The position numbers were made by a program, and so were the translations under genes. From contig NC_068556.1 in the NCBI RefSeq assembly GCF_022201045.2, forward strand, positions 18,333,501 through 18,397,500: a DNA stretch of 64,000 bases. Reading direction: 5' to 3'. Each line of letters starts with the position of its first letter. Positions within the stretch are counted from its first letter, which is position 1. The notes beneath the pieces were generated by a model. That model was given only the letters and a program-made list of their open reading frames with translations. It was not told the DNA's origin and made no database searches. Source of the stretch: Citrus sinensis. Taxonomy: Eukaryota; Streptophyta; Magnoliopsida; Sapindales; Rutaceae. Positions 19,590 to 44,277 of the stretch are shown here, in pieces.

Positions 19590-22500
19590 TTAGGAAGCAG
19601 GCTTCTGTTGTGGAGGCAGATCTTCCGAAGAGTAATAATCAGCAATTAGTCGGTAAATATAGGAGGGGCTATATCCTCCTCTGGCAGAAAAATAAAGGAA
19701 CTTCAGAACATTTTCCCACCATTATAACACACAATTATATTCAAAGCCAGTTTGCCTCTATAGAAAGAATAGAGAGACTTACATATCAGTAACAAAAAGA
19801 CGGATTAGCTCCGGAGGAACATAATCAAATGCGGGATTGACTACATGAAGTAGAGAAGAACTGCTTGCAATTCCATAATCTATACAGTCTGAGAATTCTT
19901 CAAAATTCAGCAGTTCAGAAGGGCACCTCATTTCATTTAGTAAGACCTCCAGATTATGTGGATACAGTGAACACAACTACCAGAAGTAACACAGCAGTAA
20001 CAAAAATAAACATTCATTTGGTAGAATCATTAGCATCCACAAAGTTTAAAAACAAAATATGCTTATATATCTATATCATACATGAAAAATTACATGGATC
20101 TTCATTACCATCAATTTAAAGGGAAAAAATATAGAAGACGAATGCAATGAACTCAAGCATATTCAAACAGGAAATACACCAGACTGGTGATCTTATGGTA
20201 TATTTCTACCATGAGAACATTTTTATTGCTAATGTCCATAAGACAGTGAACTAATTGCAAACAAAGGATCCACAAAGACGAGCTATTGTAATGAAGTGTT
20301 GAATAGTGTTTTTTTTTTTTTTTAATGCCAACATACCTCATGTGTACTAGCGACCACAACAAATGGAACAGCATGCTTTTTTGCAGCAAGGGCAAGCACA
20401 TGCAACCCCACAGGCGCAATTACACCACCATTTGCCATCACGGCATGAACGCCAACTATAACCTTTAGAACAAATTTCAAGTTTAAGCAGCTAATTTTAT
20501 TCATTATATAAAACAATTGAACAGTTTCGTTGACGAAGTTTGAAATTACCATGTTCACTCAAGAAATCATGGCAAAAACTGCTGAATCAGTGATCACAAT
20601 AGCTTTTAAACCTTTTTTATCCAATTCCTTTGCAAGAATATGTCCCTCAAATCTAGTCCATGACAAAGGAGCAATGAATTATTAAAAACAAATGGAGAAA
20701 GCTTTTACCCGGGCTATAAAATGGGATACTTTGGCTAGCATCAATGACATACTTTGGAGCACCATCAGCAATAAAGACTTGGAAAGAACACTTTTTCTCC
20801 TTGGCCGCACACAAGAATTCCTTCACGAACTTTGAATGACCTAAAGTTAATATCACCTCACTGCAAAACAGAGAACAGTGTCAAAGTTACTGAAATGAAA
20901 AGCATTATCTAGACTTACTATATGTTTAGGGGACAGGGAATCATGAATGAAAGGCAAAGGAAAGTATAGTTATAGAAGAAACAGTTAGTGTGCTTCCTTT
21001 AATTTAAGAATTTACAATTGACCTATTAATTTTACTCTAGTAACAAAGTTTCGGGTGGCATATCTGTAGGATGTATATGAAAGTACCAAACCAGTTCACA
21101 TTGTGTGGCAGTTGATTAAGATTGCATTGATATAAAGAAAATCCAATAAATCTGTTTGCACGTGCAGCGAGCATGTGTCTAGTAGTAATCCAACCTACAT
21201 ACTATTCTCTATGAGTCAGCCACTTGATAAAGTATATAGCTATGGTATATAAACCTTATAAGCAGAATATAATACTGAGTGTTAGTAGAAAAATACTTCT
21301 GATGAATAAGCTCCATTGCCTGTTCTGCAATCCCTTCACGGCAAGTATTGATATCTTCAATAAGCTCATTAACTGCCTTTATTAACTCAGACTTTAATTT
21401 CTTTGCACTTTTATCAGCTGCAGAGGATAACATTTCAATAGTGAAACAAAAATGGAGAAAAAAAAAAAGAAAAAAGAACCATTATAGTATTATATCAAAA
21501 TAAAACAACTGTGATAGCTTACTTTACCTTTTCCTGCAAAGATATTCTCTGAAGAAAAAGTCTGGCAGGCTGGTGCTGAGTCAGGTAAGTGTTCAAAAAC
21601 AGCAAGCAACAAAGGGGGCTTCAACAAGCATCCATCAGTGGTAGCAGATGATTTTTGGCTATTTTCATCCTCTGCGATATCTTCAACGTCATCTTCAGCT
21701 GATAATTTCAACTCTCCTACAATATCTGTCAATGGTGACAAATCTTCCTCTCTAATGATATGCAAGACATGCCTCACAATGTTCCCGACCGCGAGCTCTG
21801 CAATCCCATCCATTCAACATTTCATTAGAATATAAGGTACAAACTGATTCTTGGTCTTCAAACAAACACAATCAAATATCTCCTAAGTATCCTAATCTAT
21901 ATTCTTAGGTTGACAGGTGTTGTGCTCTCCCCATCAATGGAATATCCAATTCAAAGCTTCAACACAACACCAATCCCTAATCTAACACTTGAAAGTGAAA
22001 CCAAGTTCCTTGCGCGACAAGTTACTGTAAGTCCAAGTGCTCTAATTACTTATATTCACCATTCAGCATCCTACTCCAAATACTTGGATGAATTGTATCG
22101 CGACAAAAGCAATACCAAAGCAAACTGCACCTAAAAGAAGCACTTACCAACGGGATTAGCAGCAATGAGCTGCTCACCAACTCTCCTCACTGCCTCAATG
22201 AGAGATGCCGCGCCACTTGCAGTCGGCTCCTTGTGTTGTAAGATCACTGCACGTAGTAACTCCGCCGTGAGCCTAGCTGTTTCATATGAACCTTGAACTC
22301 TTCTGCCAGAGTGAATTAAATTCGAATAAGAGCCAGAGTGACTTTTTCTCATCTTATATACTAAAATGTAATTAAATTCCATAAACAACACACAGAAATA
22401 AATTTCCATGAAAAGTTATTACTCACAATGCTCATATAACACAGAAAAAATTGAACTCCCGTTGGTGTTATGTAAAAACTAAAACGCGCTTCAAACTATC

Positions 22501-22633
22501 AAAATAAGTTTTTTAAGAAGCACTTTCACAAAAGAACTTCCAAAAAGCAATAATGTATACAGAAGATACTAAAAACTGACCGTTTTCGAAGCTTGGAGGG
22601 TAAGTCACTCACGAGAGCTTGAATGTCTGGCAT
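19590..22633 (-). CDS. EIF2B2: eIF2B subunit beta, interrupted by an in-frame TGA in exon 6 (possible pseudogene)
   Basis: Nine exons on the minus strand: 22581-22633, 22148-22302, 21528-21797, 21297-21417, 20753-20860, 20550-20652, 20337-20462, 19783-19976 and 19590-19680. They total 1221 nt, which would give 406 aa, the usual plant length. eIF2B is the GDP-GTP exchange factor for eIF2; beta is a regulatory subunit. Landmarks are MPDIQALVSDLPSKLRKR at the N-terminus, GELAVGNIVR-like exon 3, EVILTLGHSKFVKEFLCAAK, FIADGAPKFEGHILAKEL, VIVGVHAVMANGGVIAPVG, NPAFDYVPPELI and YIYRLIADYYSSEDLP. In exon 6 the frame reads ..VFAMIS-stop-VNM.., with TGA at 20559-20561 (codon 267), where plant and human proteins have Arg. 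All other exons and splice sites are intact. A leader intron is likely at 22655-22808. If the TGA is real, the product loses its C-terminal third. Confidence 0.85.
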
Positions 22634-24445
22634 TTTTTAACCTATTAATATCCCCTAAAAAAAAAAAAAAAAACTGACCACAATAATCAATGAGACAATG
22701 AGATCGTAAAAAACTGTTAAAAAAATAACGAGAAAATAAATTGAAAAAGAAACAAGAACACGAATAAGAATTTATTTAAATAAATAAATAAAAAGCTTTA
22801 GAGCTTACCTTAACAAAGCTATACTTGTACAGATTGCACTAACAAAGTTGAGGGGCGAAAAGAATTTCAATATCAGATATAAATACTGCACAGAGAGATT
22901 TTTTTTTTTTTTTGGAACGAGAAAGGTGTAAAATTAATTAAAATTGGAAATAGAGGCAGTGATTTTAGGGTTTAACGTTTAAGATCCAAGCACTCTTAAT
23001 TTCTTAATCTCGTTAATTATTTTAATTCCGAATATCTATCTTATCTTAATTTCATTCTAAGGTTTATTTTGTTAATATATATATATATATCTTGCGTTAT
23101 ACGGAATTGAATTTGAACTTGACTAATTGAATTAATTTAGAAGAAAATTAAATATATTAATAATAATTTATTAATATTAGATATTTAAAAAAATTATCTA
23201 AATTAGATTAGAATTAAGTACTGCGTAGAGTTGTTGTTGGGCACCTAATCAATGGTCATGATTTGTTTTTTATTTTTATCTGTTTCATTCAAAATTTCAA
23301 ATTGTCAAACAACTATTAATAAGGAAACAACTCAGTTAAACATTGAATTAACTAAATAAAATTTATATTATCAGTTGTATATTCATACTATTAACCGATT
23401 GAGTTATTCAAATCAATTGATTGAACTTTAATTTTTGACCTTTTTTTTATACATTATTTATCACGATCAGTTTGTTCCCTCATTGAATCGCGTTGCCTTA
23501 GGCGCCAAATCCCACTCTCTTGGCCCTAAGTCAGCCAACCTTACACACTCAAAACGTTGCTGGATTTGAAAGTAAGAAAGAGTACTTACTCAAACTCTCT
23601 CAAGATGAGAGGAAAAAACTTTAATTGCTCAAAGGAAAACTTACAATATTTTATGTAATGTATCATGTAGGTGCAAGATTTCTTGTGTGTTTCTTGTGCG
23701 TGTCGGCCAAATTAGGCTCTCCTATTTGTAGAGTATAAAGGTGGCTTAGAACCATCACCACTACCACGTAACTCATTAATTACATGGAATTATTTACAGG
23801 CTATCACATGCACTACATGAGTGCAGAGAGCCTCCATGATTTTAGATCCGTCATGGGTGGCGGCACACATCAAGGCTTGATGAAATGCTTGGAGCGTTAC
23901 ACATGGCAGTAACAGATTTACTGCAGAGTAAACATTAAATGACATCTTTAGAATCTGAACACAAGATGCAATTTATTATCTGCTTGAGAGTAGTGTTAAA
24001 ATTAGGAATTAAGTGCAATATCACATGCCAATATCGCTCACTATGTAAGTCACTCACCGGACCATCATCGGAAACAATGGAAAATGACAAACTAAAATAC
24101 AATTTTTCTTTTCAATTTCAATAATGCTCGGCATCCTATGAATTTACCTCCAACTTGACTCCCAACTGATATATAACTTTCAACTATTAGATGTTTGAAT
24201 ATTAATTTTACAGATTTATAATCCACCAGGTGCTTGACACATAATAGTTAAGACTCAAATTGAGACTCAACTATTGAAATTTCTTGCGGCTTCAAATTTT
24301 TTCTATCAACAACCCAAAAAAAAAAAAAAAAACACTACTAGGTTACATGATAAAGTTACATGCACTTACTCTAAATCCCCGAAAATGATAATAAGACAAT
24401 AAATAATTTACATTCGCACAAACATCGACAAAGTTATGCAGTAAT
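22634..24445. other. Intergenic: eIF2B-beta leader/promoter and an LTR-like fragment
   Basis: Bases 22634-22900 hold the probable leader intron (22655-22808, donor GTAAGC and an A/T-run acceptor read on the minus strand) and 5' end of the eIF2B-beta gene. A (TA)n tract lies at 23077-23091. Bases about 23450-23930, read on the minus strand, resemble part of a retrotransposon LTR: a TATA-like CTTTATACTCTACAAATAGG, then a long GC-mixed stretch ending near TTTGGCGCCTAAGGC. No second LTR or coding region was found. Bases 24130-24445 are AT-rich NPG-gene 3' flank. Confidence 0.3.
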
Positions 24446-30233: not shown

Positions 30234-30748
30234 GTAGTAAATGTAAATCAAACAATTTTTAGTATAATATATTATTTATTTTAGAATTAATTTTTGTACA
30301 ATTAGTTTATAGCAACTTATATGAATTTAGATTTCTAATGTATATGTGATCACAATAGATTTTGATGGTCAAAATACTCGGTTTTTTTTTTCTTTTTCTT
30401 TTTCCTTCAAGTAATCTATACGTATTCGTAGCGAAACTAAATTTATCAAGAACCGACGTTCCCACAAAATGATATCAATTATTTTCTGTTATTCTCCTTC
30501 CAAAAAAGAGCATCTAGCATTCAAGTGGAAAAATATGACCAAGATTTTACTTGCAATAAATATGACTTTGTATTGCAATAAGTTAGAAAGAAAGAGCGTA
30601 CATTTTGTTATTTGTAAGGGCATTATTACTAACATGAAATCTTTAATAAAGTCCAAATCTTTTTGAACTAGTAAATAAGAACTCAAAACACTAATATCGC
30701 TTAACAAGTTGTGCTTGTATGCATGCATGCATGCAAGGTACGTGAAGC
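28598..30748. other. Intergenic: NPGR leader/promoter and AT-rich spacer
   Basis: No gene is seen. Bases 28598-29230 are A-rich on the plus strand and are the probable leader and promoter of the minus-strand NPGR gene, with a (CAT)n run at about 29200-29216. A (TTTTA)n run lies near 29900-29920. A dinucleotide (TA)n microsatellite of about 40 bases is at 30190-30230. The last few hundred bases before 30749 should contain the 3' UTR of the glycine-rich protein gene. Confidence 0.4.
30190..30230. repeat. (TA)n microsatellite
   Basis: About 20 uninterrupted TA units. Similar shorter tracts occur at 178-200, 23077-23091 and about 57522-57548. Confidence 0.95.
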
Positions 30749-31798
30749 TCAATGGCGTCCAATACCACCTCCTCCGCCGCCACCGAACCCACCACCACCT
30801 CCTCCTCCACCTCCACCTCCAAAGCCACCACCAAACCCTCCTCCAGAACCACCGCCAATGCCTCCTCCAACTCCACCACCTTTGCCAAATCCACCTCCAA
30901 TGCCTCCACCTTTTCCAAAGCCGCCACCACCACCGATGCCTCCTCCACCGCCAGTACCACCTCCAAATCCACCACCTTTTCCAATTCCACCTCCAATTCC
31001 ACCTCCCTTGCCGATACCACCACCAAGTCCACCGCCTTTGCCAATGCCGCCACCAACACCGCCTCCCTTGCCAATTCCTCCACCAAGTCCACCTCCTTTC
31101 CCAATCCCACCGCCAAGCCCACCACCTTTGCCAATACCGCCTCCAAGTCCACCGCCCTTTCCAATCCCACCACCAAGCCCGCCGCCTTTGCCAATCCCAC
31201 CTCCAAGTCCACCTCCTTTGCCAATACCGCCTCCTAGTCCACCTCCTTTGCCAATTCCTCCACCAAATCCACCGCCTTTTCCAATCCCACCACCGAGCCC
31301 GCCACCTTTGCCAATACCTCCTCCCTTACCTATTCCTCCACCAAATCCACCACCTTTGCCAATGCCGCCACCAAGTCCCCCGCCTTTGCCAATGCCTCCA
31401 CCAAGCCCACCACCTTTACCAATGCCCCCACCAACACCACCACCCTTGCCAAAACCACCTCCAGCACCCCCACCAACACCATGCCCACCTCCTAATCCAC
31501 CACCACCGCCACCTCCAAGCCCGCCACCGCCACCAACTCCACCCCCAGCTCCTACACCACCACCAAATCCACTTCCAAAACCACCTCCTCCACCAACACC
31601 TCCACCGCCACCTCCGCCCCCGCCTCCTCCAAACCCACCACCGAATCCACCTTCCTTCCCAACACCTACGAATGTTTTCTCGTCATTCTTATTACTTACA
31701 TCCCTGCCAACAACACTCGCTACGAGAATATGAAAGCAAAACAAAGATAACAAAGTAACTCTTCTAATGCCACGAACCATTTTTCGCTTGTACTTCAA
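30749..31798 (-). CDS. Secreted glycine-rich protein
   Basis: A single-exon ORF of 349 aa. Residues 1 to about 31 are a signal peptide: basic start, then VTLLSLFCFHILVASVVG. After a short linker (RDVSNKNDEKTFVGVGKE) the protein is almost wholly Gly with Phe/Leu/Ile/Val and regularly spaced Lys. The core is a decapeptide repeat GGGIGKGGGLGG (30 bp per unit, well over ten units), flanked by GGFGGG and long poly-Gly blocks; it ends GGIGRH. This is the classic structural glycine-rich protein type of the plant cell wall or apoplast. The TATA box lies only about 43 bases before this ATG, so the second in-frame ATG (31780) may be the true start; the signal peptide survives either way. The opposite strand shows long Pro-rich open frames only because GGN repeats lack stops. 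Confidence 0.85.
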   Translation of the reverse strand: MKYKRKMVRGIRRVTLLSLFCFHILVASVVGRDVSNKNDEKTFVGVGKEGGFGGGFGGGGGGGGGGGVGGGGGFGSGFGGGVGAGGGVGGGGGLGGGGGGGLGGGHGVGGGAGGGFGKGGGVGGGIGKGGGLGGGIGKGGGLGGGIGKGGGFGGGIGKGGGIGKGGGLGGGIGKGGGFGGGIGKGGGLGGGIGKGGGLGGGIGKGGGLGGGIGKGGGLGGGIGKGGGLGGGIGKGGGLGGGIGKGGGVGGGIGKGGGLGGGIGKGGGIGGGIGKGGGFGGGTGGGGGIGGGGGFGKGGGIGGGFGKGGGVGGGIGGGSGGGFGGGFGGGGGGGGGGGFGGGGGGGIGRH

Positions 31799-31840
31799 GA
31801 GAGTGAGCTCTCGTTGATGAGAACATCAAGGCCACAATGG

Positions 31841-43412: not shown

Positions 43413-43828
43413 GAGAAATTATCATTCATATACCCTATAAATGCTTTGTTATCGAAAATACTACAACACTTTGAGGGTGTATCAATCGTCCACCCTAAGT
43501 TAACAAAATGTATTTGTCATCCACCAAAATGTTACTTACCGTTTAAATAGGATAACGCCAGATGGGTAATTTGGTATTTTAATATGATACAAGTGATAAT
43601 TTAAGAGTATACAAGTGATAATAAAAGAATTTAAGGGTATACAAGTGATACTTTTCAAGGGTAAAATCGTCAATTTGCTATAATTCCGTTAACTTTCAAA
43701 CGGCAGCTAGCGGTTTAGTGGTTGGCAGATACTTTTGTCAATTTAAGGTGGACGATTGATACGCCCTCAAAATGTTGTAGTATTTTTTATAACAGAGTAT
43801 CTAGAGGGTATACGAATGATAATATCCC
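43413..43828. mobile_element. 416-bp fold-back MITE (Mutator-type), twin copy 1
   Basis: The terminal inverted repeats are long: left GAGAAATTATCATTCATATA, right TATACGAATGATAATATCCC. The arms run inward through CTACAACACTTTGAGGGTGT matched by ACGCCCTCAAAATGTTGTAG, then TCCACC/GGTGGA words. The flanking duplication is a perfect 9-bp TAAATTAAA (43404-43412 and 43829-43837). The interior has repeated TATACAAGTGATAAT words. No coding capacity. Confidence 0.88.
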
Positions 43829-43852
43829 TAAATTAAATTACATTATAATATA

Positions 43853-44268
43853 AGGAAATGATCAATTGTATACCCTTAGTTTACTCTGTTATCAAATTTA
43901 CTATAACACTTTCAGGGTATATCAGTCATCCACCCTAAGTTGACAAAATATATCTGTCGTCTACCAAACTGTTAGTTGCCATTTAGAAATGATGATGTCA
44001 GAGAGGTAATCTAGTTTTTTCATGTGATACAAGTGATAATTTAAGGGTATATGAGTGATAATAAGAGATTTTAAGGGTATACAGTGATAATTTTTAAGGG
44101 TAAATTCGTCAATTTGTTACTATTCCGTTAACTTTCAAACGGCAGCTAACGGTTTAGTGGACGACGGATAACTTTTGTCAATTTAGGGTGGACGATTGAT
44201 ACACCCTTAAAGTATTGTAGTATTTTTTATAAAAATACAAATTTAGGATATACGAATGATAATTTCCC
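43853..44268. mobile_element. 416-bp fold-back MITE (Mutator-type), twin copy 2
   Basis: Same family, orientation and exact length as the element at 43413-43828. Ends are AGGAAATGATCAATTGTATA and TACGAATGATAATTTCCC. The flanking 9-bp words are TATAATATA (43844-43852) and TATAATCTA (44269-44277), 8 of 9 matching. The two elements are separated by only 24 bases, which include the right TSD of the first and the left TSD of the second, so both insertions were independent events. Confidence 0.83.
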
Positions 44269-44277
44269 TATAATCTA

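Follow-up and report, generated by a model that had tools for sequence, protein, structure and literature searches.

A premature stop codon in an old second eIF2B-beta gene of Citrus sinensis, and its probably recent origin

Gene structure and the premature stop codon

The window, a stretch of 64,000 nucleotides from Citrus sinensis, carries on its minus strand a gene (22633–19590) whose nine exons join in frame to 1221 bases, corresponding to 406 codons and a terminal TAA (Table 1). The eight introns of the coding region all display GT...AG borders (8/8), and a further intron is possible in the 5' untranslated region. Six of the nine exons (1, 2, 5, 6, 7 and 8) have the same length as in an intact paralogue on C5, and exons 3, 4 and 9 differ from it by multiples of three, which argues against a gene model put together from open frames by chance.

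Table 1. Coordinates of the window gene and of related 5' fragments.
Feature	Position	Strand	Remarks
Possible 5'UTR intron (GTAAGC ... TTTTAG), putative ninth intron	22654..22809	-	sequence only
Exon 1 with ATG	22581..22633	-	53 bases, as in the C5 paralogue; donor GTCAGT
Exon 2	22148..22302	-	155 bases, as in C5
Exon 3	21528..21797	-	270 bases, 288 in C5; in-frame difference in variable linker
Exon 4	21297..21417	-	121 bases, 130 in C5
Exon 5	20753..20860	-	108 bases, as in C5
Exon 6, bearing the premature stop	20550..20652	-	103 bases, as in C5
Premature TGA, codon 267	20559..20561	-	both intact paralogues have CGA (Arg) here
Exon 7	20337..20462	-	126 bases, as in C5
Exon 8	19783..19976	-	194 bases, as in C5; frameshifted relic copy on C2
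Exon 9 with TAA	19590..19680	-	91 bases, 97 in C5
5' fragment on C9	L047:4792-5295		DNA search
5' fragment on C5 (13.90 Mb)	L048:4602-4826		DNA search
5' fragment on C1 (13.80 Mb)	L049:4537-4896		DNA search

The frame is interrupted by a single internal stop codon, a TGA at codon 267. Nine bases remain between it and the 3' end of exon 6, and the distance from the stop to the last exon junction is 329 bases. Inspection of the joined nine-exon frame and of the splice sites revealed no second lesion, so that the description of the gene as otherwise intact, made in a sequence-only reading of this DNA, is borne out. That reading had also held that the stop replaces a conserved Arg through a change of CGA to TGA. 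The homologous residue is indeed Arg in the solved eIF2B-beta chains 9y3t_C and 5b04_C, which we take to be those of human and S. pombe, and the homologous codon is CGA in both intact paralogues, on C5 and C8, from which the ancestral codon is deduced. More distant family members on C3, C6 and C7 have Glu at this position.

Two further changes, at prolines regarded as conserved in the same reading, are of unequal weight. The change from LCP to LCS (P324S) affects a site that is Pro in both outgroup chains; Ser is also found in a relic copy of the gene on C2, and the substitution is therefore probably older than the stop. The change from HNP to HNL is found in the window copy alone, but the proline is not strictly conserved at this site, as the S. 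pombe chain also has Leu.

The encoded protein contains an IF-2B domain (Pfam PF01008). Residues 159–265 match profile positions 66–172 with an E value of 5.3e-30 for the whole piece, and the part after the stop matches positions 175–280 (E 3.9e-24). The window gene shares 43–74% identity per match with the genes on C5 and C8, the low end occurring where a match crosses an intron, and only 29–34% with the family members on C3, C6 and C7, which makes the beta type the closest. When the C5 protein was used as the query, its ten best solved relatives were all named eIF2B-beta. On these sequence comparisons the window gene is assigned to eIF2B-beta, with a frame that the TGA at codon 267 leaves interrupted.

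Removal of the stop by splicing was considered. Within exon 6, a GT dinucleotide precedes the TGA at two places, 30 and 48 bases from the end of the exon, and a donor at either would stay in frame with exon 7. The surrounding sequences (GCA/GTTTTT and ATT/GTGATC, the slash marking the cut) are poor donors as judged by eye rather than by scoring, their use would cost 10 or 16 residues of a conserved stretch, and the donor at the exon end is placed as in C5 (103-base exon in both; GTAATT here, GTATGT in C5). We regard rescue by an internal donor as highly improbable. Skipping of exon 6 was rejected as a rescue, given that loss of its 103 bases alone would shift the frame. Selenocysteine insertion and nuclear RNA editing were dismissed on general grounds.

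Elsewhere in the window, an open frame on the plus strand (535–1095) ends in the start of a MORF domain (Pfam PF21864, profile positions 1–34 of 93), MORF standing for multiple organellar RNA editing factor, and probably represents one exon of a MORF-type gene. At 30489–31825 lie arrayed repeats of the proline/glycine type, with units of 30, 60 and 90 bases and a strong GC skew. Both strands carry long open frames here, and a Pfam scan of two on the minus strand gave no match. A tandem repeat at 43447–44270 comprises 1.9 copies of a 440-base unit with 83% matches. No RNA family reached its gathering score in the window, and ARAGORN detected no tRNA there. Searches of genome_contigs and viral_contigs for stray plant contamination, using the exon that bears the stop with either base at the site, returned 0 exact matches each.

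Paralogues and relics elsewhere in the genome

A protein search of the whole genome, covering what is probably haplotype A of Valencia sweet orange, mostly of mandarin origin, yielded 29 matches from 34 candidates scored. Beta-type matches were found at four places, namely the window gene itself (C1), C5:861189-865711, C8:18346593-18341037 (minus strand) and a fragment at C2:4875571-4875800; in this search the remaining family members, on C3, C6 and C7, showed 29–33% identity. The second eIF2B-beta locus that the sequence-only reading had proposed to look for thus exists in the form of frame-intact genes on C5 and C8. Each of these encodes 417 amino acids without interruption, and the two proteins are 3 residues apart. 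Their longest DNA matches are 96–97% identical and their coding dS is 0.013, values that point to recent copies of each other and not of the window gene. The window protein, by comparison, shares 264 of 405 aligned residues with the C5 protein (65%), with a dS of 1.31 and a dN of 0.24; synonymous sites are near saturation at this distance, which dates the divergence only as old.

The similarity between C5 and C8 extends beyond the genes. The region C5:858300-869105 matches C8:18338.0-18362.7 kb in pieces of 94–99% DNA identity, so that the duplication covers at least about 10.8 kb on C5 (about 858.3–869.1 kb, gapped) and more on the C8 side; the extent is a lower limit, as the upstream match runs to the edge of the C8 stretch compared. 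Probes placed 16–20 kb away on C5 did not retrieve the C8 place among the best 40 of 960 and 40 of 72 candidates scored. In the available text of PMC9832951, the two haplotypes of sweet orange are given a similarity of 96.2%. The C5/C8 divergence resembles this value, and it is therefore conceivable that one of the two genes is a transposed copy that entered this haplotype by introgression.

A DNA search with the window gene identified C2:4875525-4875802 at 84% identity, together with a matching 3' flank. Over exon 8, the C2 piece has the base of the window gene at 169 of 193 positions, against 140 of 193 shared with C5. The relic as a whole (C2:4875525-4876439) carries a 1-base deletion in exon 8 and includes the end of intron 7 and a 3' flank that is 76–84% identical to that of the window gene; no match to exon 9 was found. 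The presence of intron and flank identifies it as a decayed copy, made at the DNA level, of the 3' end of the window gene. With C2 and C5 used to polarise the changes in exon 8, 4 synonymous and 4 non-synonymous substitutions fall on the window branch and 5 and 8, respectively, on the C2 branch, numbers too small to separate decay from constraint; three more columns differ in all copies.

The DNA search also detected exon 1 or exon 2 at 68–80% identity at three other places, on C9, on C5 at 13.90 Mb and on C1 at 13.80 Mb (Table 1). Exon 2 with its flanks is found in all three fragments at 68–69% identity, a bit of intron 1 in two of them, and exon 1 on C9. None of the three gave a significant protein match, and they were rejected as missed intact copies because they consist of 5' fragments only. 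The DNA around them is repeated among the three places with 80–89% identity over up to 1.86 kb. Self-comparison revealed no clear terminal inverted repeats around the fragments, the short matches obtained not being tied to single loci. The arrangement looks like the capture of gene fragments by a repeated element.

Protein and DNA searches of this haplotype, among whose candidates the best were scored, found no intact member of the second lineage elsewhere. Among the copies of this old lineage that turned up in the haplotype, the window gene is the last to be nearly intact. Two points go beyond the sequence-only reading, in that the intact paralogues are ancient relatives of the window gene and decayed pieces of related copies lie at other places in the genome.

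Past selection and age of the stop

The dN/dS ratio between the window gene and C5 is 0.186 over 405 codons. Upstream of the stop it amounts to 0.252 (95% CI 0.162–0.360; 266 codons), a value that includes the variable linker and falls to 0.185 (190 codons) when the linker is removed. Downstream of the stop it is 0.093 over 139 codons (95% CI 0.044–0.172, with 167 of 2000 bootstrap samples unusable through saturation). The part after the stop is thus no decaying tail; selection acted on it during most of its past. This makes the window gene a second, old lineage of eIF2B-beta, long selected beyond the position of the stop, and its whole-gene ratio reflects the period before the lesion arose.

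Constraint was also compared site by site. The two outgroup chains agree at 120 sites (68 before and 52 after the stop), with the stop codon left out and about C5 residues 108–209 not entered for S. pombe. The outgroup residue is kept in both genes at 78 sites and changed in both at 27, while 13 sites are changed in the window gene only (10 before and 3 after the stop) and 2 in C5 only. Residue differences over the aligned proteins show a smaller imbalance with the human outgroup (20 window-only, 16 C5-only) than with S. pombe (29 and 15, respectively). From the count of 13 against 2, the window lineage looks somewhat relaxed with respect to the canonical one, yet constrained, with an excess that is clear only in part.

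Continued production of the full-length protein would predict a low dN/dS downstream of the stop just as well. Such production would occur if the gene worked by programmed readthrough of the TGA, yielding a regulated amount of full-length protein. The intact frame, the conserved 3' part and the lack of any other lesion would all fit this explanation, but they are expected to the same degree after a recent loss. Efficient readthrough contexts include TGA-CTA and similar sequences, and the TGA-G found here is not known to be among them. Moreover, both paralogues and both outgroup chains have Arg at this position, so that no conserved stop is seen, and the intact canonical copies make readthrough unnecessary. 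No observation speaks specifically for it, and we consider it very unlikely. The more elaborate proposal, in which the old second lineage would use regulated readthrough to supply a stress-tunable dose of a divergent guanine-exchange-factor subunit, deserves hardly any credence.

The age of the stop can be bounded from the lesions that did not follow it. Nonsense changes make up 3.7% of point mutations in the codons of the window gene; together with frameshifts and splice-site changes, and with assumed indel-to-substitution ratios of 0.05–0.15, this yields 128–225 disabling events per unit of neutral distance. None was found after the TGA. Under the assumed indel rates, the absence of a second lesion limits the neutral phase to about 0.013–0.023 substitutions per site (95%). 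A looser bound was obtained from neutral simulations that count stop codons alone, in which the probability of no further stop was 0.076 at a distance of 0.05 and 0.004 at 0.1 (500 simulations each). For comparison, half of dS, taken as the share of each lineage since its separation, amounts to about 0.65 substitutions per synonymous site. By either bound, the loss is recent relative to the split of the lineages.

These values also bear on whether the gene could be an old pseudogene that has been dead for most of its history. The excess of window-only changes at the conserved sites would be in keeping with such a history; the dN/dS values (0.09–0.25 across the gene), the intact frame and splice sites, and the small chance that no further stop arises over 0.1 substitutions per site of neutral evolution are not. 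On dN/dS and the neutral simulation the old-pseudogene reading was rejected, and we rate it as extremely unlikely.

Interpretation and comparison with known systems

The most probable explanation is the recent loss, by a nonsense mutation, of a redundant eIF2B-beta duplicate. The CGA codons on C5 and C8, the lack of a second lesion and the past constraint downstream of the stop favour one of the possibilities raised by the sequence-only reading, a nonsense mutation of recent date in a genome that also has an intact paralogue. A second eIF2B-beta lineage would have parted long ago from the canonical gene (dS about 1.3), retained its full-length coding capacity under purifying selection, and undergone at least one duplication at the DNA level, of which the copy on C2 has decayed to a relic. 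More recently, codon 267 would have changed from CGA, the codon of the paralogues, to TGA; a C-to-T transition at a CpG is the simplest route.

The consequences of the stop can be predicted from its position. Nonsense-mediated decay generally acts on transcripts whose stop codon lies more than roughly 50 bases upstream of the last junction. With the stop 329 bases before that junction, far past this distance, a transcript terminating in exon 6, if made, would be a target for decay. Any protein produced would end near position 172 of the 280-position profile, with about 38% of the IF-2B domain missing. The loss was presumably tolerated because the canonical gene exists in two intact and nearly identical versions, on C5 and C8.

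As a sub-case of this recent loss, and with a probability that overlaps with it, the TGA could be a null allele confined to this mandarin-type haplotype, a possibility of the kind that the sequence-only reading had raised as a heterozygous variant; the other haplotype would then still carry an intact second-lineage gene, and the species would not have lost it. If the assembly is that of PMC9832951, the plant is, according to the available text, a hybrid of pummelo and mandarin whose haplotypes differ by 15.3 exonic SNVs per kb, and in 12.7% of its genes an allele is hit by a disruptive small variant. A young allele would fit the short neutral phase, and nothing specific was counted against this version, which we hold as a tentative possibility of somewhat less than even chance. 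A base-calling or assembly error, which the sequence-only reading had also allowed for, is by contrast scarcely plausible. According to the same partial text, the error rate averages 8.8E-6 (QV 50.6); if this applies to the assembly, multiplication by 1221 bases and the 3.7% nonsense share gives about 4 in 10,000 for an erroneous stop in this gene.

The recent loss would provide a clear case in which an ancient duplicate of a core translation factor disappears late. As gene losses go it is biologically ordinary, in view of the 12.7% of genes with an affected allele given in PMC9832951, and nothing here ties the window gene to any trait. The copy number and allele status of eIF2B-beta may nevertheless interest plant geneticists, because an eIF2B-beta variant affects Turnip mosaic virus infection in Brassica juncea, according to the part of PMC12847506 available. 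A survey of the plant and Citrus eIF2B literature, covered mostly by titles and the opening lines of abstracts, found no prior report of the window gene, which does not prove that none exists.

Compared with known systems, the window gene most resembles an unprocessed (duplicated) pseudogene with a single nonsense mutation. It has kept its introns and is therefore no retrocopy, it carries one disabling point mutation, and it has frame-intact relatives on C5 and C8 of the same genome. It differs in that these surviving paralogues are ancient and not the recent source of the copy. With the canonical eIF2B-beta genes on C5 and C8 it shares nine exons at the same places and the same IF-2B domain, and it is set apart from them by its protein divergence, a shorter variable linker and the stop at codon 267. 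A further parallel is retr03 of Brassica juncea (Shopan et al. 2017), an eIF2B-beta variant conferring resistance to Turnip mosaic virus that is cited in the accessible parts of PMC12847506 and PMC9460045. Both cases represent natural variation in a plant eIF2B-beta gene; retr03, as described there, is a missense allele (A120G) in Brassica, whereas the window gene carries a nonsense codon in a divergent citrus duplicate.
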